DNA of 64,000 nucleotides from Agarophyton chilense (lineage: Eukaryota > Rhodophyta > Florideophyceae > Gracilariales > Gracilariaceae). This document shows positions 22,161 to 63,079 of this stretch, one piece after another. The stretch covers positions 186,001 to 250,000 of the forward strand of contig JARGXX010000111.1 of the NCBI GenBank assembly GCA_030374765.1. The letters are read 5' to 3'. Each line of letters begins with the position of its first letter. Position 1 is the stretch's first letter. Under the pieces are notes generated by a model. The model did no database searches and was not told where the DNA came from. It saw only the letters and a program-made list of their open reading frames with translations. The translations under genes and the position numbers were made by a program.

Positions 22161-23457
22161 ATGTCCGACCCCCTTCCCAGGACCCTTTTAATTCTCTCCC
22201 AACCTCTTCTGCAGAAGCGTATCACTGAAGATCTCATCATTGTCATGTACATCCCCACAGATATTGAAGAACAGCCACCAACGTGCTCAACTGTGCACCC
22301 TATGCCCTCCATATCTAGCGCTTCGCTAAGAGAAGCAAGATTGCAAGTCCTGCACCACGCCCTTGACCTCATCCTCAAGCCAGTTATCGAACTTTGGAAG
22401 TCTGAAAAAGTATTCACTTCAGCTGAAGAAAGAATTCGTGTCTGCCACCCCTTTCTAGCCAGATAATGTGCAGGTATTATAGAGGCAAAAGAGCTTTCAT
22501 CCGTTTCTTATGGCACTCTCACTGAACGCCGATTCAATCGATGTCTCCTACAGGGAGACTCTCTGAACCTCGCTAGTCCCTCCTCGGCTCCCAACTCTCA
22601 GATTCTTATACACGCAATATCCGAGCAGCACACTCCTTCTTATTGATTACATCCTAACAGGACTCTCTGGAACACCGTCTGAAGAAATCTAGAGAACGCA
22701 GGAGCCAGGCAGAAGTCTTCTGAAGTTCCAGTCTCTCTCTCAGTTTCTATCCTTTTTGGAACAGTTTAACAATCTTAACTGGATTCCAGGCCTTACTCCT
22801 TACAGCATTTTCACCTTTGAACCGCTCCAGAACCTGCACCTAGGAATATCGAAACTCATTGAAACAGCTGCAATAGAACGATTACCCTCGGAAACATGGT
22901 TTTCAACCGCAAGCTCCAGCCCTCTTCGAACTTTTAAGATCATACGCACGGTCATACTGAACCATTTCGCTTCATGGATTCAAAGGAATGCCCCGGGCAC
23001 TGATATTATCATCGACTTCTCCAATAAGGACAAAGGTAAGTCGCTGAACGGATTTTTTACAAAGAATGGTTGTCGCCGTATGCTGGAAGCAAAGGACTAC
23101 AAAGGTTTGGACATGGTATTCCCTTTCATAGGTCCGTTCTTTGAGAGTTGCTGCGGTGAAGAACACCAGACCCCCAACACTACTGTGTTTACCAGGTACT
23201 CATACCTCGTCGGTACTTTGTTTTACTACAATTCCAAACCGCACTGGACAATTACCACTCTTGAGCGATTCCGGGAAAATATCATCGCGTTCAAGCAAAT
23301 CGCTGTACAGACGTTGGGAGAGTTTCACACCTCTGGTCTTGGTACACACAAATTTCACCTCCTCGACCATCTCGTCGATGACCTCCGAGACTGGGCGCCC
23401 ACCTCAGAGTGTTGCTCCCCGATTCTTCCCGGAACCTCCCCGCCAGTCCGAAAATGA
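22161..23457 (+). pseudogene. Transposase-like gene (CACTA/Plavaka/KDZ-type style), broken
   Basis: A 233-codon frame (22756-23457) contains LQNLHLGISKLI near residue 28, RMLEAKDYKGLDMVFPFIG near residue 108, and FHLLDHLVDDLRDW near residue 200. The phrases D/E-P-L-H-N-L-H-x-G and K-F-H-x-L-x-H-x-x-D-D-x-R are typical of large eukaryotic RNase H-like transposases of the tnp2/Plavaka/KDZ group. A 101-codon frame at 22161-22466, and others back to 21489, probably belong to the same gene, with stops between. The frame loses the family pattern after DDLRDW, exactly where the left inverted arm begins (about 23384). The gene is therefore either cut there or was the insertion site. The family assignment is from motif feel only. 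Confidence 0.4.
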
Positions 23458-24018
23458 TGGTCCAAGTGATCGTTTAGATCAGCAATTAGCAACACAGAAA
23501 GGAAGTCAGCACTTTCAAAATCGCACAGGAACGGTATCGCAAGTGCAAGACTTTTTCAGCGTATTACCGACGAAAATATACGTTTTCAAATCACAATTTT
23601 TTCAACCTTGGAAGGAGATACACTGCTTGCAGATGAAGATGTGATGACTCCGGCTACAGCTCCTACCCAACGCACAGCGACTCGCTTCCGCCATGTCGAA
23701 CGTAACGTAGTGACACATAGTCCCTTACAGCGTCCAACACCCTCCTGGAGTACTGTATCCCATGCCCTTCGAGGTACAGGACATAGCTTCTCGCGGGCGA
23801 GGTCAAATAGAATTTGTCATCGTATGGCGCAGCCGAGGGTAAGAGAAGCAATTGAGAAATCAAGAGGAAGGCGTTAGATTCATGATAAAAGTACTCTCAC
23901 GAAGAGTTTCTAGAACTGCTTCATACACCACTTTGGATATTTGTAACAATGGATGTTGTTCGTTTTCACACTTACCTATACGCCTACATGCCTTTCGTAC
24001 TTTTTAGTCATTTCCTAC
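23384..24018 (+). repeat. Left inverted arm, segment 1
   Basis: This segment matches the reverse complement of about 62450-63079, starting at CCGAGACTGGGCGCC. It includes frames such as 23608-23877 (rich in Ser, Thr and Arg). Homology stops at 24018, where the tyrosine-recombinase retroelement begins, and resumes at 29590. Confidence 0.85.
24009..24018. repeat. Short duplication flanking the YR retroelement (left copy)
   Basis: CATTTCCTAC at 24009-24018 is nearly repeated as CATTTTCTCAC at 29590-29600. The right arm has this site once (rc GTCATTTTCTCACAG). The two copies differ by one substitution and one indel. They may be a target duplication, or short homology used at integration. Confidence 0.5.
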
Positions 24019-24395
24019 TTGCAACAATCTAGCCAGCTCTCTACGTTCGTATGCTAATAGAACTACACTCGCTCACCGCTCGCGCTTAAACAAAAGGAAT
24101 ACTATTTGAAACAACAACATTTCTAAGTATTTATTGTAAAGCATTCGTTAATTGTAATTCCACGCGAAGCCCATGCGAGCGCCTAAGTCTAGCTAGCCTT
24201 AGCCGGTTTAACCCATCCTCCGTCAAACCCATCTCCACGCCATACTACCCCAGGATCCAAGAAGTCTCGATGAGGTCCGAAAATCAGAGTTTTTCAGAAA
24301 TTATTGATTTTATACAGATCTTTTTGATTCTGATCAATTTTCCGTCCAAAACTGAAATTGACCCACCGAGAAATAACTAAGTCCTGGAGCCTCCC

Positions 24396-25391
24396 TTAAT
24401 TTCTGCTCCTAGCCTCCTCTAGTGCTTGCACGTTCTCCCGACCTCCAACCCAAGTGGGTGGCGTAACGTTGAATAACGTTGCTGCTCTGGAAATAACCGC
24501 CTCGAACTGAAGTCGCTGGGCGTCTGTCAAAGTTTTCATGAACCCATACAACTTGTGCGGCCGTATGTAGAGTTTAAAATTCTTATCTGACGCCCAACGA
24601 CCTCTGTTCTTTATTTCATGGTCGGTGACGCGACCATAAAGTTTATCGGTTGTGACACCGCCAAAACGCAGCATGTGAGGGGTAACACTTTGTGTTATTG
24701 AAAGTCGCCCAGCGGCACGCCGAAGATGCTCCATAAATCGTGCTTGAGGCATTTTAAAAAGCTTATGTTCCCTGAATACCCTTTTCTTTTCTATCAATCG
24801 AGACAACAATACTGCCATAAAATATGGACGTATTGATACTGCCTCGTTTCGGCCGCGCTGTGAAATAGAAATATTCATGCTTCCATAGTGCGGCCTTTTC
24901 CCTGACAGATCGAGTATCACAATATCGTCAATTTCAAGTCCCAACAGATCCCCCAGACGGAGATACCCATCGAACAGCAGTAGTACTCCCACGCCTTTGT
25001 CCGGTTGTCCATGCCGAACCAGGTCGAGTGCTATTGCATAAGCAACCGGTTCAGGGCAAACCCCATGATGCTGTACAGGCCTAGCTTTTACCCACCCTTG
25101 GATACTTAGTCCCGACAAGGGTAGTTTCCCAACTAAGTTCGGGTAGAAGAATTCTAACCCTGCTTTGGCTTGGGCCGCTTGGCCCCACTGCAAGTTTGGG
25201 TTTGCCCTGTGCCGCTCCACACAATACCTCGTGTACAACCTGTCCACCTCCTGTGCCGTAGAGTACTTTCTTTCAGAATCATCCAGTGTTTTCAACCATT
25301 CGACAAAGCGTTGCAAGTTTTTACGGTAATTTTGGAGAGTGCTTGGCTTTACCCTCTTGTTGGCTAGCTCAAACAGGCCTGGAGGGTTCAT
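24396..25391 (-). CDS. Tyrosine recombinase of the YR retroelement
   Basis: It is 331 codons from an ATG and is the only fully open gene of the element. The tyrosine recombinase signature is complete: Arg145 in YLRLGDLLGL, His239-x-x-Arg242 in TPHMLRFGG, Trp266 in GRWAS at the His/Trp position, and Tyr275 in FKLYIRP as probable nucleophile. An N-terminal SAM-like region (residues 15-110) fits the core-binding domain. The enzyme would join the circular cDNA to the genome. The ORF overlaps the end of the RT-RH frame by 23 nt in a different frame. Because all catalytic residues survive, it may be recently active or supplied in trans. Confidence 0.9.
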   Translation of the reverse strand: MNPPGLFELANKRVKPSTLQNYRKNLQRFVEWLKTLDDSERKYSTAQEVDRLYTRYCVERHRANPNLQWGQAAQAKAGLEFFYPNLVGKLPLSGLSIQGWVKARPVQHHGVCPEPVAYAIALDLVRHGQPDKGVGVLLLFDGYLRLGDLLGLEIDDIVILDLSGKRPHYGSMNISISQRGRNEAVSIRPYFMAVLLSRLIEKKRVFREHKLFKMPQARFMEHLRRAAGRLSITQSVTPHMLRFGGVTTDKLYGRVTDHEIKNRGRWASDKNFKLYIRPHKLYGFMKTLTDAQRLQFEAVISRAATLFNVTPPTWVGGRENVQALEEARSRN

Positions 25392-27304
25392 CAGCAGGAT
25401 TGTTTACTGACGGCATGTAAAATGCTTCCAGTCTCATGTTGCCAGCCAAGAGCAAAGCCGCGACTCTACGACAAATCCGGTTAAAACTGCACACACTGCT
25501 GCGTCCTTTCTTCAAGGCTCTGATAAGAGCTTGGTTGTCAATGAAGATTATCAGACGCTTCCCAAAATGTTTCCGTTGTCGAAGTGCCCATCGAAGCCCT
25601 AAAATGCACGCTTCCCCCCCGAGGATATGGATGGGTGATGTTTTATGCCATTTGTGTCTAATAGCCAGCTTCCATGGTTGTGCGTTAATCCATTGTAATT
25701 TATCATCCGCGGACGCTTTCAGCAGCCCGAGAGGATCTTCTGTCGCCGTGTAAACGACGCCTCCTCCCCGGCAACTGGCATCAACGCAAAGTACCGTCTC
25801 CGCAAATTGTCTGGTTAAATCAACGCGTATTAAAGGTGAGAGAGCAACGAGCAAAGATAATTCTTGCTTAGCGGCTTTTGAGGCCACCACGGACTCGTGT
25901 TCTGCTCGGCTCAACTTGTATACCACGGATAAAACTGAGAACAGGCGACGTTGGAGCAACAAAAACCACGCCCACTTGCCTAACAGTCGCTGTAGCATTT
26001 TCACATTCCATCTTCTCCTACCTATGACCGCTCCCGTTAACCATATTAGTTTACGCAACTTTACTGCGTCGGGCATCAGCAGGCCATTGAGGTTTACTTC
26101 AATGCCTAGGACTTCCGTAAACTCACTCTCTCCTGGCCACGATATTTTTTGTGGTTTGGAGGGCAGATTACTCTTCCTGGACTCCTCGACAACCACTCTC
26201 AGATTCTGTACGCTTTTCTCCCATCCGGTACCCAAAGAAAAATAATCATCGACGTACGCCCCATAACGGAAAGCCGATACCTCGATCACATCCGGTATCC
26301 AATCTTCTTGTCTCAACCCGGCTCTCTCAAGCAGAAACCTGTGCACGTTCTGGGCTATTTAAACGGAATGAGACCATCCCATCGGCATCGAACAGACAAC
26401 AGGGAACAACTGCGAGTCTCCATAGCTGATACTGGGCAGGCCAAATAACGTCCGTGACCACTCAGGCATCTTCATTCTGTGATACTGGTTCTCCATATCA
26501 GTTTTCCCTACATAGAGCTTAGTGCCTGAAGGCAGATAAAGTCTAGCAAGGTCTGCTGGGTTGGGCAACTGTGTATCTGGGGCTGCGAAAAATGCGTTAT
26601 TAGCATTTCTTGCATCGATAATTAGGCGTCGACTGCCCTTTTCTTTCTTTGGGACCGCAAAAACTCCATTCGTTTCTTCTGCTTGTTCCCTTTTGTAACG
26701 ATATTATTCCCACTCCCTCCAGCTTTTCAATAAGCCTTTTGTTTGCTCCTCCTTCAACCCCACAGAAGGGCTTTCGGAGGGCCTCCCTTTCCCGCTTCGG
26801 TTTCACTTGTGAGTCTCGCGACTCATAAACGACCCGAATATCTTCTGTCAGTAATTTCAAGACGTCTGCAGACGCCGCCAGTCCTTCGACCGGCAATGAC
26901 ACCAGATCAGGGTTGATAAGCTTCCAGGAGTGCTTTTCACCATAATAAAATATGCCTTCATCCTTAACGACGGCAGCCGCCGCAGCGAAATAATTTCGGC
27001 GGCATGCTGCCTCCCCGATTTCTCGCAAGAAGGTGGTCGCTAACCGCTGAACTGCGTTTCTCTCCTCACCTTGAGGCTCTAGAGAGAAGACATGCCCAGC
27101 ATATAGGCCATTCAGCCCTGCTACAAGTCTTCGAGTAACCGTTTCCAGCATGCGCCACTTTGCGTAACGCTGTCTTAGTCGACTATTCATACTAGCTTGT
27201 TTTTGCCCATGCCCAGATCCACCTGGGATCGCCCACTGTAGGGGAAGCAAGTCCCGCATGTCCATTACTCCAAATCCCCAGAGTTGCTGTTGTTGTTGTT
27301 TCAT
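25369..27304 (-). pseudogene. Reverse transcriptase-RNase H of the YR retroelement
   Basis: The reading frame runs 27304 to about 26690, then shifts by one base (an apparent extra A in GGAACAAGC) into the frame that continues to 25369. There is one in-frame TAA at 26361-26359 after MGWSHSV. RT landmarks: VPKKEKGSRRLIIDARNAN, motif A KTDMENQYH, FGLP, and catalytic YVDD in GAYVDDYFS. RNase H landmarks: VDASCRGGG, GGEACILGLRW, FIDNQALIRAL and NNPADEPSR, giving the D-E-D-D set. Its function was copying the element's RNA and removing the template. With the shift and the stop it is not translatable as one protein unless by recoding. Confidence 0.85.
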
Positions 27305-27316
27305 TAAATGAACTCC

Positions 27317-28495
27317 CTAATTTGTCTCCCCGCCACCCGGGGCAGACTTATCTTTTCGGGAGCGCCCCGCGAGTTCACGACGTAATTTTGCAGATTTATG
27401 CAGCCTTCGTGGATATTTCTCCGGGACTAACTCGTTGTCATCCTCCTCTAGCTCGCGAGCAGCATCCCAGTTGCCTGAGTTCTCCGCCATAATGACGGCT
27501 GCCAAACGCCGTAGAGCGACTTCAACTGCCAATTCACGCCGGACTCTCATGATCTCAAACGATCCAATGATACAGTATACTATTTTAGCAAGACTTGCTG
27601 CCTCTCGCTCGCTTCGAAGATTTGTCAAATGCCGAGCCTCCACCCACGCCGACACCGTCGGATAATTCGTGAGTGCTTTGCGGAGCATATTTCCCCCAAC
27701 AAGAGATCTACCTGCAAAGACTGTTCCGGGAAAAGGACGAGCTGCAAACTTCTCGAAGAACTTTTTGTTGCTCTTCTTCTTCTCGCTTGTAGCCACATCT
27801 GTATCGGCCTCCGGCTCCGAATCAGAAGAACTCTCACCGAGATCTGGGCCGTCAACTACCCCCTCAGCTAAAGCTCTATCCAAATCCTTCGCTAGATCAC
27901 GGCCGCCAGAACGCCGCTTCCCCTACAACTTTTTGATCTCCCCTTCCAGCGCTCCTTGGTTTTCGAGCATCTTGGCCTGCCCTTTCTGTATAGCAGAAAT
28001 GGCCGACAATATAGCACCAAGCGATTCAGTTTCCTTGAGCGTCTTCGGAGCCTCCTCAATCTCAGAGCTATCAGAGTACTCGTCGCCACTTTCATCTTCC
28101 TCGTAAGTGTCTTTTTGCCTCTTTGAACCACTCGATCCACCAGGAGCCTCTCCGGTTCCGTCGTCTTTACCGGCAACACTCATTGGGTATGTTCCATCTT
28201 GGATTCCCCATAAGAGATCATTGAAATCTCCCTCTTTTGGGATCCCCGTCAATTCCTTTCTGACAGCCTCAAGCAGGGCACGCCTACTAGTCAGTCTCTC
28301 TCCCAAATATTCGGACGCATTCGCCCCGAATCTCTCCCTGAACAGTTTCAGGGCCCCGCCGCCCTTTCCCTTGATGGCTTTCGCCAGGACAGGGCACAAA
28401 GTTTTATCTTTGTTTGTAGCAGGTCTATACTGCCCCGGAAGGCTGACCCAAGCCAACCAGCAGGCTACTTTAACCCATATCAGAGGCTTGCGCAT
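27317..28495 (-). pseudogene. ORF1 / Gag-like region of the YR retroelement
   Basis: It starts at an ATG at 28495 and reads 190 codons to a TAG at 27925-27923. It goes on in the same frame for 188 more codons to a TAG just before the RT frame (also the same frame). The first half ends in an acidic Ser/Glu-rich stretch and a short coiled-coil-like helix (ISAIQKGQAKMLENQ). The second half has a helical, Arg/Ala-rich region (LRKALTNYPTVSAWVEARH). I see no zinc knuckle. Position and size fit the Gag-like ORF1 of DIRS/Ngaro elements. Whether the two stops are mutations or separate real ORFs is unclear. Confidence 0.6.
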
Positions 28496-28726
28496 TAAGG
28501 AGGGCTGCTCCCGACTGAGCGCCTGACCTAAAAAGGTCCAGCCGTCACCTGACCCCCATACTAGTGGGAACTAGGTCTAGGCCTCGTATCCGCCAGACCC
28601 CTAGGAATTACCCTAGTAGTACATGGTCGGACCTTGTGATTGACAAAATCACCAAGTCTTTTCTTACAGCTGTCCGTCGTGTCCATTTGTCTACGTGTGG
28701 TATCTATGTGGTTTGAAGGAGAAAAA

Positions 28727-28827
28727 CAGTCCTGAGAGAGTTCTCCAATCAACCCGCAACAACACACACAGACAGCAAGTCACAAACAAACAACACCAAC
28801 GACTTCTTTTACCTCTCTCAGGACTCA
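28727..28827 (-). other. Long-loop hairpin in the YR element leader
   Basis: AGTCCTGAGAGAG near 28727 and CTCTCTCAGGACT near 28815 are exact 13-base inverted repeats separated by about 75 bases that are A/C-rich. The structure lies upstream of ORF1 in the sense of the element. It could be a leader RNA structure (packaging, primer or translation control). Its function is inference only. Confidence 0.5.
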
Positions 28828-28915
28828 CCCACACAGAGAAGATAAAATTCTTCTCCGCAGCCCAGCCAGAATACTCAGAAAATTCCAAAATCCTGACCAG
28901 AACTGCAAAATTTTG

Positions 28916-29075
28916 AATTCTTTCGCTTACTAGCGTCAGAAATCGTGATTGAAAACATCTGCTTAATAGCATCTGATTTCATACCCACCAAGGATCACTC
29001 CTTGACTTTCTCAATTAGACAGTTAAGACTGCCCGGCCGGCACCGCGAAGGAGGTGGAGATAAGATTCAATCCGG
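28916..29075 (-). repeat. Direct repeat A2 of the YR element
   Basis: About 155 bp, from GAATTCTTTCGCTTA to GGTGGAGATAAG(A/T)TTCAA, matching 29360-29515 at roughly 88-90% by eye. The pair is separated by about 285 bp. Confidence 0.75.
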
Positions 29076-29359
29076 CCCGTATCTTCTTGACTAATTAATC
29101 CCCCTCGGCAACTCACCCTTACTGCTTAAAAAACCTTCTCGGGCCTCACTGCGACGGAAACGCGAAAAAGGTGACATTATTTAAGATTGTAGATTCTACA
29201 TGACGCCTAATCAATTCCGGTTGTGCCCGAGGCATATAGTTTCGTCCTCATCACACTCGCAGTCTTTCATAACTCAGTCATCAATATAGTCTCTAAAACT
29301 GGTCGTGCTCGTGGGGTATTCCCCACATCACACTTGCAGTCCCACCTTTCCCACTAATT

Positions 29360-29515
29360 TGAATTCTTTCGCTTATTGGCGTCAGAAATCGCAACCGAAA
29401 ACATCTGCTTAATAGCATCTGATTTCACACCCACCAAGGATCATTCCTTGACTTTCTTCGTTAGCCAGTTAATACTGCCCGGCCGGCACGGCGAGGAGGT
29501 GGAGATAAGTTTCAA
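29360..29515 (-). repeat. Direct repeat A1 of the YR element
   Basis: The partner of 28916-29075, lying about 75 bp inside the 5' end of the element (sense orientation). Split direct repeats of this sort stand in for LTRs in Ngaro/PAT-type elements and are used to rebuild a full-length circle. Confidence 0.75.
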
Positions 29516-30123
29516 ACCGACCATGTAGAGGCGTCTTGGATTGTTTCACTCGGAAATAAAATTACCTACGCATTCGCTCGGTAATAAAACATTTTCTCAC
29601 ATAACGTTATGGAATGATTCGTATCTAGATCCTCAGTATTCATCCAATGTTGTCGGAATGTACACTATATTTATGATATCTGCATATGTCTTTTCTGCGT
29701 AAGTCATCTTGGGGAACTGCGTCACATTATGCATCATGCTGAATGTAGGCCTACCCGATTCTCCAAGGATTGTTGATTTGATTTCGGGATAGAAGGTAGT
29801 AGCTTTACAGAATTGAATTACCGCAGCAATGGGGTGCTGCAGAGCCTTAACGACGATGTTACAAAGCCAAACCTGCGGAATTTACATATTCCACTTCTCA
29901 AGGGGCCTACCTCTGCAAGTATACGACAGTCTGCTGTTCAGAGTTTATGGATCTCTGGAACTCTGTATCTGCCACTTGAAGGGAAAAGGAATGAGGTTTA
30001 GAGATGCGGACTTTGAGAGGCTTTTCATTGTTTAGAGGTTGCGATTTGGGCGGTACAACTTACCGGTGAGGTGCAGCGTGTCGGTGTCAGGGCTTGAAAG
30101 TATTGGGGGGATGCAGCTATACT

Positions 30124-30804
30124 TTAGTGGTTCGGTGCCGCACTTTGGCTCGGTGGAATGTCAATGTCTTGGGACGGTTGCATTGCGGTTCTGATGGACT
30201 TCGGTCTTCGAGCCCGAGGACGATGAGTCCTTGCGACTTTTCGGCGGTTCGGTGTGTCGAAAGTAGGGCGGATAAGCGGTGCAGCTTGTCGGCTGTGTGG
30301 TCGAAGGCAGTACGCTAGTGCGGAGGAGGATAGGAGTTCCGGTTTGAAGGTGGAGCCGCTGTGTAGAGGTGATAAGGTATGGTGTGTTAGAGATGTGGTA
30401 GTTGGACATTGGGACTTGACGGTGGTGCATTTAGTCGGCGCTATCGTGTGTGGGCGTTGGAACATGAAGATGGTGCGGCGAGTCGGCATCAGTGCTTCAT
30501 GGCGGTGCAGCAATGGGTTTAGGCGGGGCTGCGAAGTGTCAGTGTTCTGGCTGTAAGGCTGTGCGGGTTGATATGCGTCAAGGGTTTCGGAATCGCGGTT
30601 TGCGAGACATATTGGTGCTTTTGTGCAAGCAGCTTTGACGCGCAGCTCACACATGGTGCAACTCACGCAGAAATGGGGAAATGACAGACGACGAATTCTA
30701 AAGTCGTACGAAGGGTACGGCGGGAACTGTGATCTACGAGACAGCAGCGAAGAAAATTGCGTCACATATGCGTCTCCGCGGTTGCTTCTGTCTATTAGAT
30801 TCAA
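30124..30804 (-). CDS. Conserved arm ORF C, left copy (226 codons)
   Basis: The frame is open on the minus strand. It corresponds codon by codon to the 222-codon plus-strand frame at 61368-62036 in the right arm, with many substitutions but no stop in either. It is rich in Ser, Thr, Pro, Arg and His. Near the N-terminus is FPHFCVSCT(M/L)CELRV, a Cys cluster (C-x2-C-x2-C) that is kept in both arms. No family is recognised. It could be a real protein or a stop-poor composition. The first in-frame ATG may lie inside the stated range. Confidence 0.4.
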   Translation of the reverse strand: MNLIDRSNRGDAYVTQFSSLLSRRSQFPPYPSYDFRIRRLSFPHFCVSCTMCELRVKAACTKAPICLANRDSETLDAYQPAQPYSQNTDTSQPRLNPLLHRHEALMPTRRTIFMFQRPHTIAPTKCTTVKSQCPTTTSLTHHTLSPLHSGSTFKPELLSSSALAYCLRPHSRQAAPLIRPTFDTPNRRKVARTHRPRARRPKSIRTAMQPSQDIDIPPSQSAAPNH

Positions 30805-31342
30805 GAATTATTGCAGAACATGTGGGACTCAAAATAGGCCTTGGCGCATCGTCGTTCTCAACTGGTTTCCTTTCATGTTTGGCTGCCTTGGAGTTGACTA
30901 CGAAACGCTATGAGTAGGGCGGTGGAGTCGGAAATTAGGAAAAGCTGAGCGATTAAAAAAAATGAGCCGTGACAGCGCTGATGTTACACATCAGCAACGC
31001 ACACATATCGTAAGCTCCGATTCGTAACGTGGCGCACAACGCACGCGTTCTCGGGAGCATACTTGTAGAGGTAGCGCGAGCCATGACTGCAGCCATCGCC
31101 TCGTGGCTCTGCACGGGATCCTTTTCTCTCTCTCTTTTCATAGGTATGCCATTTCAATACCTACCTAGAGTAGAGGGTTATCTTTGCAAGAAATGTTTTC
31201 TCACGAGGTATGAAAACACCCTTTCTGGACCCTTTTAAACAACTTCAATGCTTGGTATGTAGTAAGAGTGCTTCATGAGCAGTTTTTTTAATGTATGAGC
31301 GCAAAGGATATGATCGGTTTTACGATTCATGACCTTCGAGTT

Positions 31343-32952
31343 CTAATAGTTGTGCTTAGCGTCCGTGAATAAGAAGTTTGTTGTATTCCAGTGATTTGTG
31401 CGCGCTGCATGCCTCATCATAAACAGCTCGGACATGACCAATGGATTATAGTCTTTCAAACCCGCTTGTGTTGAGTTTTCAGGCCACGAGATCCTGGCCA
31501 ACCATTCCTTCCACTGTCCGAGCTCGTGCACCAAATCATAGTTATCCGGGCCAAGCCATCTCGGACGAAGCTCCTCTCATGCGGTGTACTCGAAGATGGT
31601 TAAATATTCTATGTCACTCATGTCCTCTCTGAGCTCATCGGCGATCTGCTTGGTAGTGTACACAAGTTTTGCGTACTTATGAGACACCCAATTATGAATG
31701 GAATCCAGATACATTTTTAAATCTCGTCGGAATAGTATCGGTCCTCGCCCAACCCAGCCTTCAAAATGTCTAATAAGCTCGTACGAGGGTGATGTTCATT
31801 TCACGGAGCTGTTTAGGCCGCATTACGAGCATCGCTTCCTTGACCTCGTGATGAATACTGGTCATGTGATCACCAATGTACTGGGCTGCCCTTCTTGTCC
31901 CTTATGTTAGGTAAGTTAATATCACCGTTTGTCAACACTCTGTGCTCGTTAAGGAACCGTTTGTATACTTTGTCAACCATAGATCGCTGATCATTAACTG
32001 TACTAGTGTAAATATCAGGCCATTGGCAGTTGCCCGCAAATTGAACTGGATATATTTCCCTCGACGTTAGCCGGTATAGACTGTCTGCATCTTAGTGCAC
32101 GCCTCCAAGATCTTTGAATGAGGATTCGTTTTTCAAGTATAGGCCTCTCAGTTCTTCCAGGTCAACGGTGAGACGATAGTGTGCATCCCAAAATGTATTG
32201 ATGTATTTCTCTTCCCGTCGCTCATCATGACTGAATAGACCTGACATCAAAGCAATAGTGAAGTTTTGGTATGCCAGATCGTACAAACGCCAATTTTCTA
32301 TAATACTGGAACTTCAGGAAGGTCCACACTGAGCATGTTCATTTTTTACCGTTTGTCAAACTCACCCAAATCTTTATCGATGAACCATGTTTTGCTAAAC
32401 AAGTATAGATTGTGTTTCCATTGGCAGTATTCAGAGAAAGGACAATACATGGCGTCTTGATGATTGTTTGATAGTACAGGTGGGTCAGTACACTCCGTAA
32501 TTCGACCTTGACCAAGGAACATGGACTGTGGATGGGACTGCCAGTGATGGAAATGGAAAAGCAGATTCTTCCGCATGGTTAGAATGGACTGCTCTCTGCC
32601 GCAATGCAGGATGAGTTCATGTAACGGAATTCCAGGATTATGAAAATATCTGAAGCGGACGACGTTGGTAATGTGGGATTTCAAGAGCTACTTCGAGTAC
32701 AACAGTTTCGACTGCTTCATGAAAGTGTTTCTCATTAAAGCCCAATCATTTTCAGGGAGCAGTACATATATGGAACGCGCGGCACGTACCATACGTGATA
32801 GGAAGCCCCGAAGGAAGAGTCTTTTCTGAGGTGACTATTCGAATCTTTGTTGGTGGAAGGCCGAAGGAAATTGGAATGTCATCAACTGTAAGAACCGAAT
32901 AGTGAGACAATAAATTAGTACCATTGACGAAGATCAGCACCTCATCGACCAA
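31343..32952 (-). pseudogene. Arm gene A, left copy, decayed unknown protein
   Basis: Minus-strand pieces 32952-32752, 32684-32346, 32286-32092 and 31534-31343 line up in order with pieces of the right arm at 58030-59671. Shared phrases include PPTKIRIVTS, PGIPLHELI, HCGREQSILTMRKNLLFHFHHW, FWDAHYRLTVDLEELR and MMRHAAR. They look like a globular protein of perhaps 550 residues or more, broken by stops and frameshifts at different points in the two arms. I do not recognise the family. It is possibly a gene of the mobile element that made the arms, or a captured host gene. Confidence 0.5.
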
Positions 32953-33046
32953 ATCGATCAGTTCATTGTGATGATGTAATTCAACGCATGTTCTAATAAC
33001 CTCAACTCACCGTGAAACAGAACAACGGCTGATCTTTCAAACCGTG

Positions 33047-33051
33047 GAGCG
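33047..33051. repeat. Target site duplication GAGCG, left
   Basis: GAGCG precedes the 5' LTR and recurs right after the 3' LTR (44183-44187). The uninterrupted right arm has one copy (rc GGTGGAGCGTGGCG), which confirms a 5-bp duplication typical for Ty3/gypsy integrases. Confidence 0.9.
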
Positions 33052-33934
33052 TGAATGACAATCTTCAAGGGGGTTTCTGCGCAGGACTTAGAGAGTTCGC
33101 TCGCTTGAGGACTAGCTTGGCCGATTACAAGCTATACCGCCATTGCGTGCTGACAGCCGGTTAGGACCGGAAGTGCACATTGGTGGAACACGTGGATTGC
33201 ACGGATGCCGACGCTCGAGTGCGAGGCGTGCCACACGTGGCCCGGATTCTACCTAGTCGTTAGTATTATGTAGTAATTTTTTTAGTATTTATTTAGCTAT
33301 GCTATTGCTATTTAGTGTCTATTTTTCGGCCGCGCGCCCACTGTCAGGCGCCTCGCGCCACACTACTTAGGAAGTTGAGCACTGCTCCCCGGTAAACACT
33401 CTCTTTGGAGAAAAAGGAGGGAGTCTTGGCTCTTAACTCTTCGCCTTCGGCCCGTCTCCACCGCATACTGCGTGAGCGCCCTTCGCACGTTAGTTCATCC
33501 ACCTCTCTGTCGACCAAAGTGCTACCGCCACCGTGGGTTAATATTTAATCGCCGAAACTTGTATTAGTCTCACCCCTGTATAGGGTTTCGCCCCCGTTGC
33601 TCTTGTTCTCCTTTTTGGCTCTCGTGAGTGGCTGCCCCACTCACCCCGCTCGTCCACCTCATACGAGTTTTTCCTCGCTCCTTTTCCGACAATCGCCGTA
33701 GTACTGCTCCGCCTAGGATTGGTCACACCCCGTATTGCGCCGTGCTCACCTAAACACTCTAGGTATATCCCGCAGGATTGGCCTCGATCTTACACCCGAC
33801 TTCGTCGTGCCTTTCCAGAGTGGCTCTGTTTCTGTGCTCCGCTGGGAGGCGTTTCCTCCGCCTGAGGCGTGTCTCTCAGGAGAAAAAGATCCCGAACATC
33901 TTCGTGGTGTCTCCGCTCCAAGCGTTGTCCTACA
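33052..33934 (+). repeat. 5' LTR
   Basis: It begins TGAATGACAATC and ends GTTGTCCTACA. It aligns with 43297-44182 throughout, with scattered substitutions and small indels (for example TTAGTATTATGTAGTAATTT against TTGGTATTATTTAGTATTT). Putative promoter and polyadenylation signals lie in the T/A-rich stretch near 33260-33320, not resolved further. Confidence 0.92.
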
Positions 33935-33937
33935 AAC

Positions 33938-33953
33938 TGGTCTACCGACTTAG
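33938..33953 (+). other. Primer binding site
   Basis: TGGTCTACCGACTTAG lies three bases after the 5' LTR. The initial TGG is what a tRNA 3' CCA end would pair with. I cannot say which tRNA without the host tRNA set. Confidence 0.6.
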
Positions 33954-34099
33954 AAGTTTGAGTCGGGCACACTCAGTCACGATTAATCGGAAAGGGGACT
34001 CACAAATTGAGGTTGATCTCAGTTGCCCTCTTTGAGGAAGTTTATTGGCCCCACTAGCCGATCGGTTTTGGATAATCACGTGTATCGGATACTGATCTC

Positions 34100-35788: not shown

Positions 35789-36159
35789 GGTTCGCCGAGA
35801 CTCGCCACCCAATACCGGCTTCTGGTCTGATTTGTCATCTCTGCTACGAACCAGGCCATACTTCTCCACAATGTGTGTTGTCTCTCCGAGAATGGGCACA
35901 AGTCGTAGTCAATTACGAGGCCCTATCCCCGGAGGACAAAGCAGCTGTTCCGGTTGCATTGTATATCCGTGCTCGAACGGATGTTCCACGTCATGTGTCG
36001 CTACTCCGAGCTCGGGTTGTCCCTGCCCCCGATTCCCGTGTCACAGACGTCGTCGGTAACCCCACCGCTTCTGCGGTACCTTCTGGACCTGACGTCCAGT
36101 CGTTGCCCGCTCAACGCTCTGAGCAGCTGCCTCCGGCGGAGCAGGCCCAGGAAAACTAA
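35785..36159 (+). pseudogene. Nucleocapsid part of gag with CCHC zinc knuckle
   Basis: CHLCYEPGHTSPQC (C-x2-C-x4-H-x4-C) near residue 18 is an intact zinc knuckle for RNA binding. The frame is one base back relative to the capsid frame and overlaps its stop by four bases (TTGA). It ends TAA at 36157-36159, just before pol, which is again one base back. A single deletion probably separated it from the capsid frame. The step into pol may be genuine frameshifting. Confidence 0.75.
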
Positions 36160-36161
36160 AT

Positions 36162-46374: not shown

Positions 46375-46379
46375 ATGTT

Positions 46380-46825
46380 GTAACGCAATGACTGATGGGT
46401 CAGCGTACGGGACTCGACCAGTGGTAGCGTGGTAGAGCGGGTCCTTAGGTTTAAATCCTTAAAGGCGACACTTCCAGAGTACTTGGTGCGACGGGCTGTC
46501 ATTTACTCCGTAGTCCTCCAGGTTGGAGCTACGGCAATGATGGCTTGAAGACCAATTGGAGAAACTAAAATACCAAAGGGGTTATTTAGTATCCTAACGG
46601 TGCCTACCTTACTCAAAGGGAAATATGCTTCACTCGAACCAAGTAAATTGTACTGGCCAGGGGCTGGGATCTCCCTGGCACTGTAATGCTAAACTATTTT
46701 ACTCATTAAAATATATTAATAATCTACACTATTCCTGCTGAGGTCGGCCGGTCTATGTCGCGTCTGTAAGATCCCTCAGAGCCCGGCGGCTTACAGAGCT
46801 CAACCGTTATCGTTGCTCCTTCACA
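46380..46825 (+). repeat. Dispersed repeat, copy 3 (SINE-like)
   Basis: Full-length copy, about 445 bp. It has TGGTAGAGCGGG, followed closely by GGTTTAAATCC, a one-step variant of the B box. It lies between the two convergent PIF/Harbinger genes. Confidence 0.75.
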
Positions 46826-49745: not shown

Positions 49746-49880
49746 TCTCCCGAATTCTGGCTGTACCAATGCTTTTTTTTCTGTATGCAATTTTTCAAAG
49801 CAAACGGCGCAATAATAATCTAGTCACCTATCCGAAGACTCTAAATAGTCCTAAAAGCATTCTTTCCAAACTTAATTAGC

Positions 49881-53442: not shown

Positions 53443-56400
53443 AGAATGCTTGGAATGCGTAATGCCTAATCCTGAGGAATGCTGATGGTTTCCTGATAAA
53501 AACGAACCCCCGCCGCTAGTTAATACATCAAAAACCTCCCTCATCATTGCCATGCCTTCGATCACCTCGATGAGCATGCATCGCCTTTTCGAAAGACACC
53601 ACTGCAACTGTAGGTAATCGAAATATATCCTTCATCATCCATGAATTGTAAAACAGAGCATCTCTGGTTTGTCGAAGAATTGAAAAATTGCTTCACAGCA
53701 GAGCTAGCTACCGAACTGCTGCGCCAACAAGACTTGCACTCTGAGATAAACCTTAACGAAGACCAAGAACCGCTAGTCCGATGCATCGTCGGGGTCTCCA
53801 TCAATTAGCTCAGAAAACGTCGTAGTATTTTGAAAAAGCTCCTACAGAGAGGCGTCGTACGAATCTTTTCTTTTTACTCGTTTGGATTCCCGGTTGAATT
53901 ATTCGCAAAAAGTTTGGGGAACTCAGTATGGTTTGTACTTACCGTGCAAATAATCTCATAACAGTCCCGGACGCGATATCGTTCTCGATGGTTAAAAAAG
54001 GACTAGATCAAATCGCAGGCGTCAGTATCTTCTCACCAACTGTTCTCGTCGGCGCTAGCAACCAGGCTCGCATCAAGGACAACGACTACCACAAATTCTC
54101 TATTGAGATGTGTTCTTTCCATTCCAATTGACACGGTCTCTGCTGCTCTGGGCTCTGCAAACAACGAGCAGAGTTTTCCAAGCTCATTTCTAAAGCCCTA
54201 TTTGAACTGAGTAAACACGGCCTTCTGATCTATTGGAATAAAATTCTAATGTGTACATCAGTTTTCTTTAGTGGGAGAACCTTGAAAGAAATTACAAGAA
54301 CTCTGGATTAGTATAAGCTAATGACTGGCGCTAAGACGCCTTTTCAGTTGCTTCTAAACTGAAGGTAACATATATGTACTCATTGATTTGCAGTTAGCGT
54401 GAAAGAGAAGCAAAATACGTTATTTCTAACGTCCATTGGAGGCGAATAGATTTTCTAATGTATATACGCTCGAAACATGGACGTCATATGATGCCAGTTG
54501 TTTAAAAGTGTATTTTTCATACGCCGGTTTTTGCACTGCAGCGCCCGATTCTATTGTCTAAGTAAAACCTTATTCAAACCATGCTCTAACGACTTTACAC
54601 TACATTGTTTGAACTGCTTTCTTCATTATCACCAGCTCAATGGTTGTACGACCCCTCAAACACGTATTAAAACATGGTTCATACCTCCCTGAGTTGGTTG
54701 TAAATAAAAAACTCTTTCGGGAGCTCGACTAATTCTAATAATCATTTGCACTCATTAACTATTATGACAGATCGCTATGCTAGTACTATATCGCTTCTCA
54801 TTCTAAGTGAGTACTATTTGGCAATTTAAAAAAATAACTTTAACAACATGAATTCAAGTTTTAGTACGAAGCTATAGTTGTTTTAACCAACCACGCGATG
54901 ACATCCAAGAAACTTAACCAGAAATTAATTAAGTGCCAGTCAGCTCGACCCCACTCTCCAAAATTAAATTCTAGACCAACAACCTATTTAAACTCTGACA
55001 ACCAGGCCCACTACTATGATCCCAATTACACATGCTATTTGCGATAAAGATTCCAAGCTCTAAATTGATATATCAGGAAACGTTTTCTTTTCTGAACTTT
55101 TCTCAGAAAACTGAATCCGATTGTCAGAATTCTCTGACTCTGATTCAGAATTCCTGATGAACTGCCTGAAACGATTTTCGGTTTAAGTTTCCACGTGAGC
55201 ATCCAAACCCCCAGCCCAATCTTTCATGGGCAACGTTAAAGATTTGAATGCACTCTTGTAACCGCTATGAGTCCCTGGCGTTGGGATGGGGATGTTCTGA
55301 TAAGAACTGATGGAGTTCATGTGGTCAAATTTTCCCCTTAAATCGATTTACTAACATACTCGGCATTCTGTTTCCTCATTTGCTAGCTGAGCTTTCTTTT
55401 CTTTTTCTGCGCTCTTCTAGCCCGCCTCCGGAACTCTCCCTACAAGTTCCCGATATCCTCCCGCCTTCCCTCCAGAAAAAAGGCTTCTTAGTTCCCACAA
55501 CCTCTCTTCCACTTTGAATAATTTTTGTCATGTACTGTAGTTGGCACGGAGAAGCAACTAGATGTCCACTGGATGATAGGGAGATGTCCCAATGACGTAC
55601 AAGTGATATTTCGGAAGTTCAACAGATGTGTATATGATGTTCAAAGTATTTTAATTCAGAATATTGCTTGTCACACGGATGTCTGCGTGATAGTGCATCG
55701 GATTAATTGATGCACACTTGATGTTTTTGGGATATTGTTTGTAAAATTTAGTTTCCTGGTTATGACCTCATTGCTATACAGTACTTTTCAAATCGGAAAA
55801 TGTAGGCTGTTGCCTTAATTTTCGCCGTTTGTGTGTCACCTGATCTCAAATGATTCAATTCTGAGAGGTGTGACTGTTTTAGGCCCTTCTTCCTTGCCGC
55901 CAGCTAGCTTCTTCTATTCTCCGCCGAGCCAATGCTCCCCATGCGCATGAGCACGACGCCTCACGCTACCACGCACTCACTGAGCCCCCCGCCATACAAC
56001 CGCTTCTGCCCATTCGCAAGCTGTTAGATCGCAATGAAATCGACTGGATGCTTCGAAAGTGTTTATTTCCAGACACTCGCGAGAAAATGAAAATGAGTTA
56101 CGCATGGGCGTCCAAATTTGTACCAACAAGAAAGAAGTTACAAATGAATTGCTTTTATCAACGACTGCCAAACATAGTAAAGCTTTTACGCAAAAAAACA
56201 GCCGAAAGGGGCGTAAATTATAAATGTGCGAGCCCTTAGGAGCTCGCTCTGGAAACTAAAGTTAATACTGCAGCACATATGCCATCACCATAGAATTCAT
56301 GCCTCTCACATAATACTGTAAATTTCAACGAAAAAATAATATTTTCCATCACAATGGAAAACAAGAAAGAAGGGGAATAAGATCGGTCCCAAGGAAGTTT

Positions 56401-56954
56401 GGGTACGATCAATATGATATGTACCGTGGTACTCGAACATACTGTCAATGATAGACTCCGCTGATAGACAGACGTAGTTGAAATCATCGCACGAACAAAT
56501 TCACCAGGACAAGGAACCCACAAACTGCTGCCAAACAGAAACGGAAGGCATTTTACCCACCAAAACCACCCCCATCTCCTCCACTGTTATCTCCGCCACA
56601 ACCGTCTTCCTGTTGGAAGAAGTTTCTGAATTCATGGGGTTATCTTGTTGTATTGAACTCACAAAGGGTGCATATTGTTTCAAAAGTAAATCCTGAGAGA
56701 TTTGAGAATCTGTATTCAGGGTCTGGGCAGAGCATTCTACGGGTTTATCTGATTTGGTTGGGGATTCTGCAGTCCCGCTCGAGCAGAATCCTGCACGGGC
56801 TTGTCACGGTGGCTTGTAAAATCTCTGTCGACAGCTGGTAGTGTTTCGAGGCTATCAATGATATGCTGAGGCTGTCTTCCCCGGACAAAAATAGAGACCG
56901 GCGCGTCCTCGGACCCAGACTTCCGTCGGTGAACATCTTTCAGCACCTCATCCT
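53443..56954. other. No gene supported (right part of the core)
   Basis: AT-rich, with short frames only. One at 56048-56239 (DRNEIDWMLRKCLF upstream in frame, then RKKLQMNCFYQRLPNIVKLLRKK) reads like a real basic protein tail but is too short to place. Nothing here is shared with the region just inside the left arm. Confidence 0.3.
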
Positions 56955-57629
56955 GTGGCAAAACGGAGGAATAACAAGCAACGAACAATCCAAAGCTTTT
57001 TTCGTTTCCACGGGACAATAAAAGGCGGAAACAAAACTCCAAACTACAAAAACAGCTTGACGGAAACTATACATGCTAACAACACCGATGTCACCAACGC
57101 ACGGGTCGTCTTTGAAAGATGATACAGCAGCACCGGTTCGAACAACCAACGAGCATGCGAGGCGCTTGGCGACAGCTGCTTGTCAGCGTTCACATACTTG
57201 AGGAGAGCACCCGCAGAGACGGGTGCATTTCTAACATAGCGCGGATGCAGTAGCGGTCGCGTGCTCATGGTTACTACACAAACGAGAAGCCAGCAGTATT
57301 CAATGGCGCATCGCTCTAACGACTCGTCGGGCCATCCAAAGAGTCGCTGCCTCTTCTCGACGATTCGAATAGCGCGACGCCTTCCAAAACCGCAGCGAGT
57401 AAAATGCACTCGTCCGACAGTGGCACGTGATTGTCTGCAGCCACTGGATCCAATACACGTGCAAGTGGGACTGCATTGCATAGGTGGCACGCGTGTGAAG
57501 AAGCTTCGCATGTAATTCATACGTCACGTGTGTGCATGCGTTGCATTCAACAACAGATGTCCGCATCATTACCGATTTGGTGCGCCACCACGACAGTTTG
57601 CACTTGGCCTCTAACATTTGCTTTGTCAT
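56955..57629 (-). pseudogene. Arm gene B, right copy
   Basis: Minus-strand frame 57629-57300 and, in the same phase, 57149 down to the arm end (VVRTGAAVSSFKDDPCVGDIGVV, FYCPVETKK). It corresponds to the left copy at 44528-45160. There are several stops between the parts. No family recognised. Confidence 0.4.
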
Positions 57630-58029
57630 GGCGCTGCAAGATGCACCTCATCTCCTCCATAGCGGTTATGGTAGTGGTCGTGGTTGTCTCGCTTCATTGT
57701 TGCCTTCGCTGTCGTGGTCGCTGTTGATGTCACTGTCGCAGTCACTGTCGCTGTTGCTGGCGCTTATTCATCGTGTACAGTACGATTCTTTCCACGCTGT
57801 CGCGGCGACGCAGAGTACGTGTCGTGTTCAAGATCACTTCTTTCAAACGCGCATCGCTCCGATATAGACTCAGCTGAGTCTGTTCCGTATTCCTCACTTT
57901 CATCGTGACGGCCGTCTGCCTGTCATTATTGATATGTTCTCCTGCTTCTGGATTATTTCGCCACGCTCCACCGTTTGAAAATCCAGCCGTTGTTCTGTTT
58001 CAAGGGGAATTGAAGTCATTTAAAATGCG

Positions 58030-59671
58030 GTGAAAACACGGCATCACAATGAACTGCTCGATTTGGTCGATGAGTTGCTGATCTTCGTCAATGGTGCCAA
58101 TTTATTGTCTCACAATTCTTTTCTTACAGCTGATAACATTCCACTTTTCTTCCACCTTCCACCAACAAAGATTCGAATAGTCACCTCAGCAAAGACTCTT
58201 CCTTCGGAGCTTCCTATCATGTATGGTACGGGCTGCGCATTTCATATATGTGCTGCTGCTTGAAAATGATTGGGCTTTAATGGGAAACACTTTCATGACG
58301 AATTCGCAACTGTTGTACTCGAAGCAGCTCTGGAAATCCCACATTACCAACGTCGTCCGCTTCAGACATTTTAATAATCCTGGAATTCCGTTACATGAAC
58401 TCATCATGCATTGCGGCAGAGAGCAGTCCATTCTAACCATGCGAAAGAATCTGCTTTTCCATTTCCATCACTGGAAATCCCATCCACAGTCCATGTTCCT
58501 TGGTTAGGGTCGAATTACGGAGTGTACTGAGCCACCTGTACTATCAAACAATCATCAAGACGCCATGTATTGTCCTTTCTCTTAATAATGCCAATAAAAA
58601 AGCAAACTTTACTTGTTTAGCAAAACATGGTTCGTCGATAACGTCTTTAATGAGTTTGACAAACGGTACAAAATGAACATGCTCGGTGTGGACCTTCCTG
58701 GAGTTGCAGTATTATACCAATTGGCGTTCGTACGATCCGGATTACAAAAACTTCACTATTGCTTTGGGACCAGGTCTATTCAGTCATGATGAGCGACAGG
58801 AACGAAAATACTTCAATACATTTTGGGATGCACACTATCGTCTCACCGTTGACCTGGAAGAACTGAGAGACCTATACTTGGAAAACGAATCCTCATTCAA
58901 AGATCTTGGAGGCGTGCACTAAGATGGAGACAGTCTATACCGGCTAACGTCGAGGGAAATATATCCAGTTCAATTTGTGGGCAACTACCAATGGCCTGAC
59001 ATTTACACTAGTAAAGTTAATTATCAGCGATTTATGATTGACATAGTATACAAACGGTTCCTTAACGAGCACAGAGTGTTGACAAACGGCGAACTTAACT
59101 TACCTCGTATAAGAGACGAGAAGGGCAGCCCATTACATTGGTGATCACATGACCAGTATTCGTCACGAGGTCAAGGAAGCGATGCTCGTCATGCGGCCAG
59201 AACAGCCCCATGAAATGAACATCACCCTCGTACGAGCTTGTTAAACATTTGTCGAGCTGGGTTGGGCGAGGACGGGTACCATTCCGACGAGATTTCAAAG
59301 TGTATCTGAATTCCATCCAGAATCGGTTGTCTCACGAGTACGCGAAACTTCTGTACACTACCAAACAGACCACCGATGAGTTCAGAAAGGACATAAGTGA
59401 CAGAGATAATTAAACCATGTTCGAATACACCGCATGAGAGGAGCTTCGTACGAGATGACTTGTCCCGGATAACTATGATTGGGTGCACAAGCTCTGACAG
59501 TGGAAGGAATGGTTGGGCAGGACCTCGTGGCCTGGAAACTCACCACAAGCGCGTTTGAAAGACTATAGTCCATTCGTCATGTCCAAAATGTTTATGATGA
59601 GGCATGCAGCGCGTGCAAATCACTGGAATACCACAAACTTCTTACTTACGGACGCTAAGCACAACTATTAG
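58030..59671 (+). pseudogene. Arm gene A, right copy, decayed unknown protein
   Basis: Plus-strand pieces 58030-58263, 58223-58507 and 58686-58922, then stop-broken frames through NLPRIRDEKGSPLH, EKPHEMN-like and FQSVSEFHPESVVSREYAKLLYTTKQ, to TNFLLTDAKHNY at 59671. They align in order with the left copy. The stops differ between arms in part, so decay continued after duplication. Combining the arms shows a protein of 500-600 residues with no motif I can name. Confidence 0.5.
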
Positions 59672-59774
59672 AACCCGAAGGTCATGAATCGTAAAACCGA
59701 TCATATCTTTCGCGCTCATATGTTAAAAAAAAACTGCTCATGACGCACTCTTACTACAAACCAAACATTGAAGT

Positions 59775-60814
59775 ACATGGATTAGAGTACTCAGAGTTTA
59801 ATCAGTACTGCGACATAGAAAACATGACCGAACGACAAAAATTGAAAGTCGTCAGAGGAAGAATCCTTGGCTGTTCGTTATTCGTCTTGGAATTCAGAAA
59901 AGTATTCATTATGATGTTGCTGTGACGGCAACTCTTCGCAAAGGTTTGATAAGAATGGAGGAGAATACTTTCTCTTTCATTTTTTATCACGTTCAGTAGT
60001 ATGTGGATGGGTTTAGCTAGAACAGGCCGTGCCCGGACAACGTTGCAAAGGATCATGATTGCGATACCATGCAGGAACATCAATATTAAAATTTCGCTAT
60101 CTTGGAATAGGTGGAGGGGGAAGCTGTAGCCGGTGAATAGGGGGCGTAGAAGGGACTATATATTATCCAGTGATATGAAGGTCAGTGCGAGACTTGATAA
60201 AAAAGCTTTATCCAGCATCACATCTGGAAAGTGACCTTTGGTTTTCGTATATATGCGACACCATTGCATACTCCTACTATCGAACTGGACCCTCCGTGGA
60301 TCCTCCTGAAACTGACAGAAGTTGAGAAAGAGTCTTGATTTTGAATGGAAGGCAGTTGGAACGCAAGCACTTCTACATGCAGATGTAGCTTATCTACTGT
60401 ACGAAACCCTTTGAGCTGATAATGCTTCAATAACAATCGGTGTACAGGTAGGGATGTAGCTTGAATTGCGAATTCATTCCACTGAACGTGACCGAATGAG
60501 GTGGACCTTATGAATTCTTTTTCTCCTGTTCGTCTACGGCTTGAGCGCACGGCACTCTTGACAATTCTGATTCAAGAACATCAAAGGTCGTAAAGGGAAA
60601 CTGAAGTCGCGGTCGCACACCTTTTTTGTGGACAAACACTGACGCAACATCTGTTATCCACATATCTCGTGATCACTAAGTGCTTTTGAAATCGCAGACC
60701 CGGGTGAGTGAACATTGTAGATTACTACTGGTTTATATATCCGAAGGAGTCACGATTTCGACGACTCATGTTGCCTCCGATACGGCAATTACAATGATTG
60801 GACACAGGATAGGT
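59775..60814. other. 1.04-kb segment present only in the right arm
   Basis: The left arm joins directly across this point (CATTGAAG|TTGTTTAAAAG in right-arm orientation). The two edges share only GT, and there is no terminal inverted repeat. A deletion in the left arm is more likely than an insertion in the right. A 110-codon minus-strand frame (60550-60218) inside has no known motif. Confidence 0.6.
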
Positions 60815-61367
60815 TGTTTAAAAGTGTCCAGAGAGGGTGTTGGCATACCTCTTGAGAGAACGTTTCTTGCAAAGATAACCCTCTACTCTAGGTACGTATT
60901 AAAATGGCATACGTATGAAAAGAGAGAGAAAAAAGGATCCCGTGCAGAGCCACGAGGCGATGGATGCAGTCTTGGCTCGCGCTTATGAACGTACCTGTAC
61001 AAGTATGCTCCCGAGAACTCGTGCGTTGTGCGCCACGTTACGAATCGTAGCTTACGATATGTGTGGGTTGCTCATGTGCATCATCAGCGCTGTCACGGGT
61101 CATTTTGTTAATCTCTGAGCTTTTCCTAATATCAGACTCCACCGCCCTACTTCTGGCGTTTCGGAGTCAACCCTAAGGCACCCAAACATGAAACGCCACC
61201 AGTTGAGAACAACGATGCGCTGAAGCTTATTTTGAGTCACACATGTTCTGTAATAATTCGTGAATCTGATAGACAAAAGCAACCGCGGAGACATATATGT
61301 GACGCGATTTTCTACGCTGCTGTTTCGTAGATTACAGTTCCCGCCGTACCCTTCGTAAGACTTTAGA

Positions 61368-62036
61368 ATGCGTCGTCTGTCATTTCCCCATTTCTGCGTG
61401 AGTTGCACCTTGTGTGAGCTGCGCGTCAACGCTGCCTGCACAAAAGCACCCATATATCTCGCAAACCGCGAATCCGAAACCCTGGACGGCTTTCAACCAG
61501 CACAGCCTCGCAGCCAGAACACCGACACTTCGCAGCCCCGCCTAAACCCACTGCTGCACCGACATGAAGCACTGATGCCGACTCGCCGCACCATCTTCAT
61601 ATCCCAACGCCCACACACGATACCGCCGACTAAACGCGCCACCGTCAAGCCCCAATGCCCAACTCCCACATCTCTAACACGCCAGACCTTATCACATCTA
61701 CACAGCTGCTCCACTTCCAAACCGCAACTCCTATCCTCCGCACTAGCGTTCTTCCTTCGACCACACGGCCGAAAAACTGCACCGTTTATCCGCCCCACTT
61801 TCGACACACCGAACCGCCGAAGAGTCGCAACGACTCACCGTCCTCGGGCTCGAACACCGAAGTGCATCAACACCGCAATGCAACTGTCCCAAGACATTGA
61901 CATTCCACCGAGCCAAAGTGCGGCACCGAACCACCAAAGTATAGCTGCATCCTCCCAATACTGTCAAGCCCTGATACCGACACGCTGCACCTCACCGGTA
62001 AGTTGTAACGCCTTAATCGCAACCTTAAAACAATGA
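61368..62036 (+). CDS. Conserved arm ORF C, right copy (222 codons)
   Basis: Open partner of the left frame at 30124-30804. The C-x2-C-x2-C cluster (FCVSCTLCEL) near the start and the phrase HRHEALMPTRRTIF are kept, as is the ending SQDIDIPPSQSAAPNH, after which this copy runs on for about 35 codons. Substitutions are many, yet no stop arose. The protein would be Ser/Thr/Pro-rich and basic. No family recognised. Confidence 0.4.
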   Translation: MRRLSFPHFCVSCTLCELRVNAACTKAPIYLANRESETLDGFQPAQPRSQNTDTSQPRLNPLLHRHEALMPTRRTIFISQRPHTIPPTKRATVKPQCPTPTSLTRQTLSHLHSCSTSKPQLLSSALAFFLRPHGRKTAPFIRPTFDTPNRRRVATTHRPRARTPKCINTAMQLSQDIDIPPSQSAAPNHQSIAASSQYCQALIPTRCTSPVSCNALIATLKQ

Positions 62037-63079
62037 AAAACCTCTCAAAGTCCGCATCTCTAAACCTAATTCCTATTCCCTTCAAGTGGTAGCTACAATG
62101 CCAGAGATCCATAAACACTGAACAGCAGACTGTCGTATACTTGCAGAGGTAGACTCCTTGAGAAGTGGAACATATAAATTCCGCATGTTTGGCTTTGTGC
62201 CATCGTCGTGAAGGCTCTCCAGCACCCCATTGCTGCGGCAATTCAATACTGTAAGGCTACTACCTTCTATCCCGAAATCAAATCAACATGCCCTGGAGAT
62301 GCCGGTATGCCAAAATTAAGCGTGACTCATAATGTGACGCAGTTTCTCAAGATGATTTACGCAGAAGAGACTTATGCAGATATCATAAATAAAGTGTACA
62401 TATCGACAACATTGGATGAATAATGGGGATCTAGATACGAATCAATCCATAGCGTTCTGTGAGAAAATGACTAACAAGTACGAAAAGCATGTAGACGTAT
62501 AGTTAAGTGTGAAAACGAACTACATCCATTATTGCAAATATCCAAAGTGGTGTATCAAGCAGTTCTAGAAACTCTTCGTGAGCGTACTTCGGCTATGAAT
62601 CTAACGCCTTCTTCTTGATATCTCAATAGCTCCTCTAACCCTCGGCTGCGCCATAGGATGACGGATTCTATTTTAACTCGCCCGCGAGAAGCTATGTCGC
62701 GTAACTCGAAGGGCAAGGGGTACAGTACTCCAGGAGGGTGTTGGACGCTGTAAGGGACTATCTGTCACTTGGGCGGAAACGAGTCGCTGTGCAATGGGTA
62801 GGAGCTGGGGCTGGAGTTATCTCATCTTCATCTGCAAGCAGTGTATCTCCTTCGAAGGTTGAAGAAATTGCGATATGAAAACGGATATTTTAGTCTGTAG
62901 TACGTGGAAAACGTCGTGCGTTTGCGATACCGTTCCAGTGCGATTTTGAAAGTACTGGCTTCCCTTCTGTGTTGCTAATTGCTTATCTAAGTGATCATTC
63001 AGGCCATCACTTTCGGACTGCCGTGGAGATTCTGGGACGAATTGGGGAGCAACACTCTGAGGTTGGCGCCCAGTCTCGG

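Follow-up and report, generated by a model that had tools for sequence, protein, structure and literature searches.

A mirrored locus of the red alga Agarophyton chilense, read as two opposed copies of one EnSpm/CACTA-superfamily transposon

The window that we analysed is a 64,000-base stretch of one contig (C111:186001-250000) of an Agarophyton chilense assembly of 79.8 Mb in 135 contigs. A preliminary description had reported that a right arm in this stretch matches three separate left pieces in reverse complement, with a divergence of about 11%. Self-BLAST of the window recovered the same inverted arms, with limits within ~20 bases of those described (56934-63083 against the left pieces). 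The matches, all in reverse complement, pair 62465-63083 with 23381-24013 (86.4% identity), 60813-62469 with 29590-31243 (89.8%), 57962-59774 with 31242-33053 (90.1%), and 56934-57968 with 44183-45224 (86.2%). The resulting divergence of 10 to 14% agrees with the earlier figure, and the E-values of 0 exclude chance as the source of the matches. The features of the locus are collected in Table 1.

Table 1. Features of the mirrored locus (positions in window coordinates) and 3-base target duplications of family copies
Feature	Position	Strand	Basis or remark
Dispersed repeat adjoining the left copy where the copy breaks off (23380)	22200..23380	+	best other places 77-79% identical
Left copy, piece equal to right copy 62465-63083	23381..24016	-	self-BLAST
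Recombinase-bearing insert in left copy	24017..29589	-	tyrosine-recombinase ORF 24396-25391, reverse-transcriptase-like ORF 25369-26346, direct repeat 28912/29358
Left copy, piece equal to right copy 57962-62469 without 59775-60812	29590..33053	-	self-BLAST
LTR retrotransposon in left copy	33054..44182	+	LTRs ~33052-33929 / 43297-44177, 93.5%; integrase domains in ORF 38706-40607
Left copy, piece equal to right copy 56934-57968	44183..45224	-	self-BLAST and end searches; terminal 1.4 kb beyond missing
Single copy of abundant LTR-like repeat, inserted in core	46379..46825	+	self-BLAST and genome search
443-aa ORF in single-copy core DNA	48459..49790	-	ORF list and genome search
Dispersed repeat, target of right copy	54742..55544	+	other flank carries on at C111:263158
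Right copy, 5' part of complete EnSpm/CACTA-type transposon	55545..63399	+	homology with other copies; left end CACGGAGAAG, flank TGG
~9.5-kb retroelement-like insert in right copy	63400..64000 in window, on to window coordinate 72909	+	terminal direct repeats
Target duplication, right copy			TGG/TGG
Target duplication, C109 copy			ATG/ATG
Target duplication, C4 copy			TAC/TAC; 34.8 kb between the ends, read as a single element that holds nested inserts
Target duplication, C4 copy at 1.24 Mb			TAG/TAG
Target duplication, C18 copy			AAA/TAA
Target duplication, C26 copy			TAA/GAA

The three left pieces are one copy of the element, split by two younger insertions and shortened by one deletion. 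The deletion removed ~1,038 bases corresponding to 59775-60812 of the right copy; the equivalent sequence is kept in the copies on C18, C26, and C10 and, up to 60613, in the copy on C71. In the first insertion, the recombinase ORF stayed below the curated cut-offs of both models that it matched, NCBIfam Xer (E 1.4e-5) and PF13495 (E 3.1e-5), and had no PDB match at E 0.1; the reverse-transcriptase match was very weak (E 0.25), and the direct repeat pair lies near one end of the insert. We tentatively regard this insert as DIRS-like. The second insertion, with its LTRs and integrase domains, is an LTR retrotransposon, probably Ty3-like. The left copy lacks its two ends and the transposase part; searches with pieces of the C109, C26, C18, and C10 copies found neither missing end within the window or up to 10 kb outside it in each direction. 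On one side the copy gives way, at 45225, to core sequence that has a relative on C96, and on the other it meets a dispersed repeat of another kind. A 233-aa ORF (22756-23457) lies within that repeat and extends into the left copy; it had no match in Pfam or NCBIfam.

The right copy is much longer than the arm. Its homology with other genomic copies stops at 63399 and restarts at C111:258910, past the nested insert, and its far end lies at C111:263157 (window coordinate 77157), 13 kb past the end of the window. The whole copy thus spans C111:241545-263157, which amounts to 12,103 bases of its own and 21,613 with the nested insert. The positions previously taken as the ends of the element, 56955 and 63079, are both the ends of the left fragment; the true ends were missed because the ~9.5-kb insert interrupts the right copy at 63399 and the window stops short of the far end.

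Both ends of the right copy are flanked by TGG, a 3-base target duplication, and the copy sits in a dispersed repeat that occurs in at least ~40 other places among the matches listed (40 of 213 candidates scored). When we joined the two flanks, the resulting sequence aligned to all four of the target-repeat relatives that we fetched, none of which carries the element (79.2 to 81.5% identity, 1 to 14 gap positions). Because these four relatives represent empty sites, the right copy must have entered as one unit, with the core outside it.

The right copy's nested insert has terminal direct repeats, the first at ~63395-63841, which share 84% identity over 397 bases. This figure looks older than the 90% identity between the arms, and it counts against a simple history; unequal rates and gene conversion from one arm to the other are possible causes. 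When identity between the arms was examined for gene conversion in 16 windows of ~250 bases, it ranged from 85.6 to 93.4%. We had also considered the repeat at 63395 as a tRNA-derived SINE, a reading dropped because the same repeat doubles as the terminal direct repeat of the insert and occurs singly at 46379. Self-BLAST placed a further, inverted pair of this LTR-like repeat at 579-1024 and 1981-2426, in addition to the examples at 46379 and 63395, and the repeat at 579-1024 joins, on its left, a decayed copy of the ~9.5-kb retroelement-like sequence.

The preliminary description had stated that the ends lack ordinary terminal repeats. This does not hold for the element itself, which has imperfect terminal inverted repeats: the left end reads CACGGAGAAGCAACTAGATGTCC and the right end, reversed, reads CCCAGAGAGACATCGAGATGTCC. 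Set end to end, the outer 31 positions of the two ends of the right copy agree inversely at 23 (simple binomial probability 1.3e-8 at one match in four). An unanchored local alignment of the termini scored 15 against a mean of 8 and a best of 16 for 500 shuffled pairs. Since this score does not beat the shuffles, the case for terminal repeats rests on their fixed position and their recurrence among copies. A genome search that allowed up to 3 mismatches gave nine matches to the left-end pattern (seven forward, two reverse) and 10 to the right-end pattern (seven forward, three reverse), counts that include a few places judged by pattern alone (C16, C95, and C111:658681); the backward control gave none for either pattern. 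The subterminal regions are also repetitive. Of the 17 GATGTYC units in the right copy (12,103 bases, insert excluded), 10 fall in its outer 450 and 650 bases, and in the C109 copy 8 of 17 fall in the outer parts.

The C109 copy lies in retroelement-like sequence, an uninterrupted relative of which adjoins the window, and comparison with this relative fixed the limits of the copy exactly, together with its duplication. In the six copies for which both ends could be read, the two 3-base flanks are identical in four and differ by a single base in the remaining two. Empty sites were found for two copies, the right copy and that on C109.

Profile searches identified a tnp2-type transposase in the family. 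The copy on C109 matched PF02992 (Transposase_21) with an E-value of 2.3e-13 (50.3 bits, cut-off 28.6), and that on C80 matched it with an E-value of 9.9e-15. The corresponding region of the right copy (C111:260596-260991) carries two in-frame stops. The right copy is a complete transposon, with both ends, subterminal repeats, a target duplication, empty sites, and a transposase region broken by stops. Across the genome, the PF02992 profile gave at least 100 matches, part of them below the cut-off, and it matched none of 14 control genomes. The alternative assignment to Plavaka (PF18759) was rejected, as the transposase region is only weakly similar to Plavaka transposases and stayed below the cut-off of 26.3 bits in both the C109 copy (15.9 bits, against 50.3 for PF02992) and the C80 copy (13.1 bits).

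As summarized in PMC8978399 and PMC2613891, the superfamily is characterized by a tnp2 transposase, terminal and subterminal repeats, and a 3-base target duplication. All of these are present here, and the earlier view of the structure as unlike a standard DNA transposon is wrong: the element belongs to the broad EnSpm/CACTA superfamily in the Repbase sense. Strict CACTA elements, in the account of PMC8978399, have an intact CACTA motif at both ends. The ends here read CACGG on the left and CCCAG on the right, and we have placed the element outside the strict CACTA group because the motif is absent. The same distinction separates it from plant CACTA elements such as Tgmt* of soybean, with which it otherwise shares, as far as PMC2613891 describes them, a tnp2-type transposase, imperfect terminal inverted repeats, subterminal repeats, a 3-base duplication, and large size. 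A red alga has yielded such elements before: enlarged En/Spm (CACTA) families of 16 to 20 kb with 4 to 5 ORFs are attributed to Chondrus crispus (Kojima et al. 2013, cited in PMC6431247). In the account of PMC4455052, the Repbase entries for that alga number 1,181 and the EnSpm superfamily was widened. Compared by description rather than by sequence, the present element resembles those in PMC6431247 as a large En/Spm element of a red-algal host but measures 12.1 kb without its insert and has decayed ORFs. The genome has nine matches to PF00504, and for one of them the closest PDB sequence is a chain of entry 7y5e (E 6.9e-60), a red-algal complex, which makes a host of this kind likely.

A genome-wide search with the arm had been proposed as the means of telling two opposed copies from a single giant element. 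Using three pieces of the right arm as queries, we found at least 11 other loci, on C4 (two), C10, C18 (two, near-identical), C22, C26, C27, C71, C80, and C109. None of the 11 forms an inverted pair, and the pairs on C4 and C18 each run the same way; the proposed test thus favours single scattered copies. The two stretches on C18 (53253-60406 and 148158-155311, the latter at the contig end) have the same orientation and a separation of 94,905 bases, and the 6.5 kb that we compared (L008 versus L009) showed 99.9% identity; either the contig end overlaps the other stretch or a direct duplication took place recently.

The copies on C109, C80, and C4 (at 1.24 Mb) carry an extra ~2.8 kb on their left, where a second terminal sequence, related to the old one, lies farther out (the three extra parts are L041:1750-4540, L042:1387-4169, and L046:1341-3998), and share an internal deletion with each other and with the C22 copy. 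Measured at the outer end, the 3-base duplications of the C109 and C4 (1.24 Mb) copies are identical, and the outer end is therefore the one used in transposition. It is conceivable, if somewhat doubtful, that the family acquires new outer ends as it evolves.

The stretch between the two insertions, the core, is ordinary DNA. Bases 48400-50400 occur once in the genome and hold the long ORF to which the preliminary description had drawn attention, a 443-aa frame that had no match in Pfam or NCBIfam, had a best PDB match at E 0.73, and may be a host gene. Bases 45246-48400 have one diverged relative, on C96 (40 of 1,467 first-look candidates scored). These properties bear on the other reading originally offered, a giant element that moves as a unit, with the arms as very long inverted repeats and the core as cargo. 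In its favour, the arms are inverted and neither has a closer relative than the other arm. For the right copy this reading is refuted by its own two ends, its TGG duplication, and its empty sites, which leave the core outside. Moreover, part of the core is single copy, arms and core were not found together at several places, and an inverted pair is lacking among the 11 other loci found. The core pieces that are repeated belong to dispersed families, though the target repeat sits ~0.9 kb from the C22 copy and the LTR-like repeat lies in or beside the C4, C27, and C71 copies. Both observations count against the independence of core and element; we attribute them to chance neighbourhood because both repeats are dispersed families. 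A giant element is therefore extremely improbable.

How the two copies are related was addressed with a tree of 12 copies, which groups the arms as sisters (support 100/100) at a distance of 0.11 changes per site, although eight of the 12 rows fill less than half of the columns and the tree excludes the second C18 copy. In 14 of 16 windows of ~250 bases the closest relative of the right copy is the left copy, and the reverse holds in 12 of 16. The left copy is thus the closest relative of the right copy among the 12 compared. The short distance between the two copies, 10.3 kb, suggests that the pair arose by a local jump or by duplication within the locus. Linked transposition is a feature of En/Spm in plants.

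The same proximity of sister copies would suit an inverted local duplication, in which recombination copied an inserted element into the left arm with no second transposition. The left copy has lost its ends and its own target duplication, so that nothing there contradicts such a duplication, and thus we only infer a separate insertion event. Self-comparison of the window revealed no flanking homology beyond the element, which argues against this explanation, and we consider it unlikely. An inversion produced by the assembly itself has a precedent of sorts in the 99.9% repeated contig end on C18, but the arms differ by 10 to 14% and the nested inserts and deletions differ between the copies, so that an artefact has almost no probability.

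We therefore conclude, with high confidence, that the locus holds one EnSpm/CACTA-superfamily DNA transposon in two copies, 10.3 kb apart and in opposite orientation. The first of the original readings, two opposed copies of one unknown mobile element, was right about the opposed copies; the kind of element is one already known. A transposase of the family would have attached to the end repeats, excised the element, and reinserted it, and the pair would have arisen by a short-range jump or by local duplication. Both copies are now probably inactive, and the mirror look is a by-product of their orientation.

As a mechanism this offers little that is new and is an ordinary outcome for a repeat-rich genome. 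It illustrates that nested insertions can give two ordinary transposon copies the look of a giant mirrored element, the true ends of which may fall outside the window that is read, and it contributes a large EnSpm family from a red alga, delimited and supplied with empty sites.
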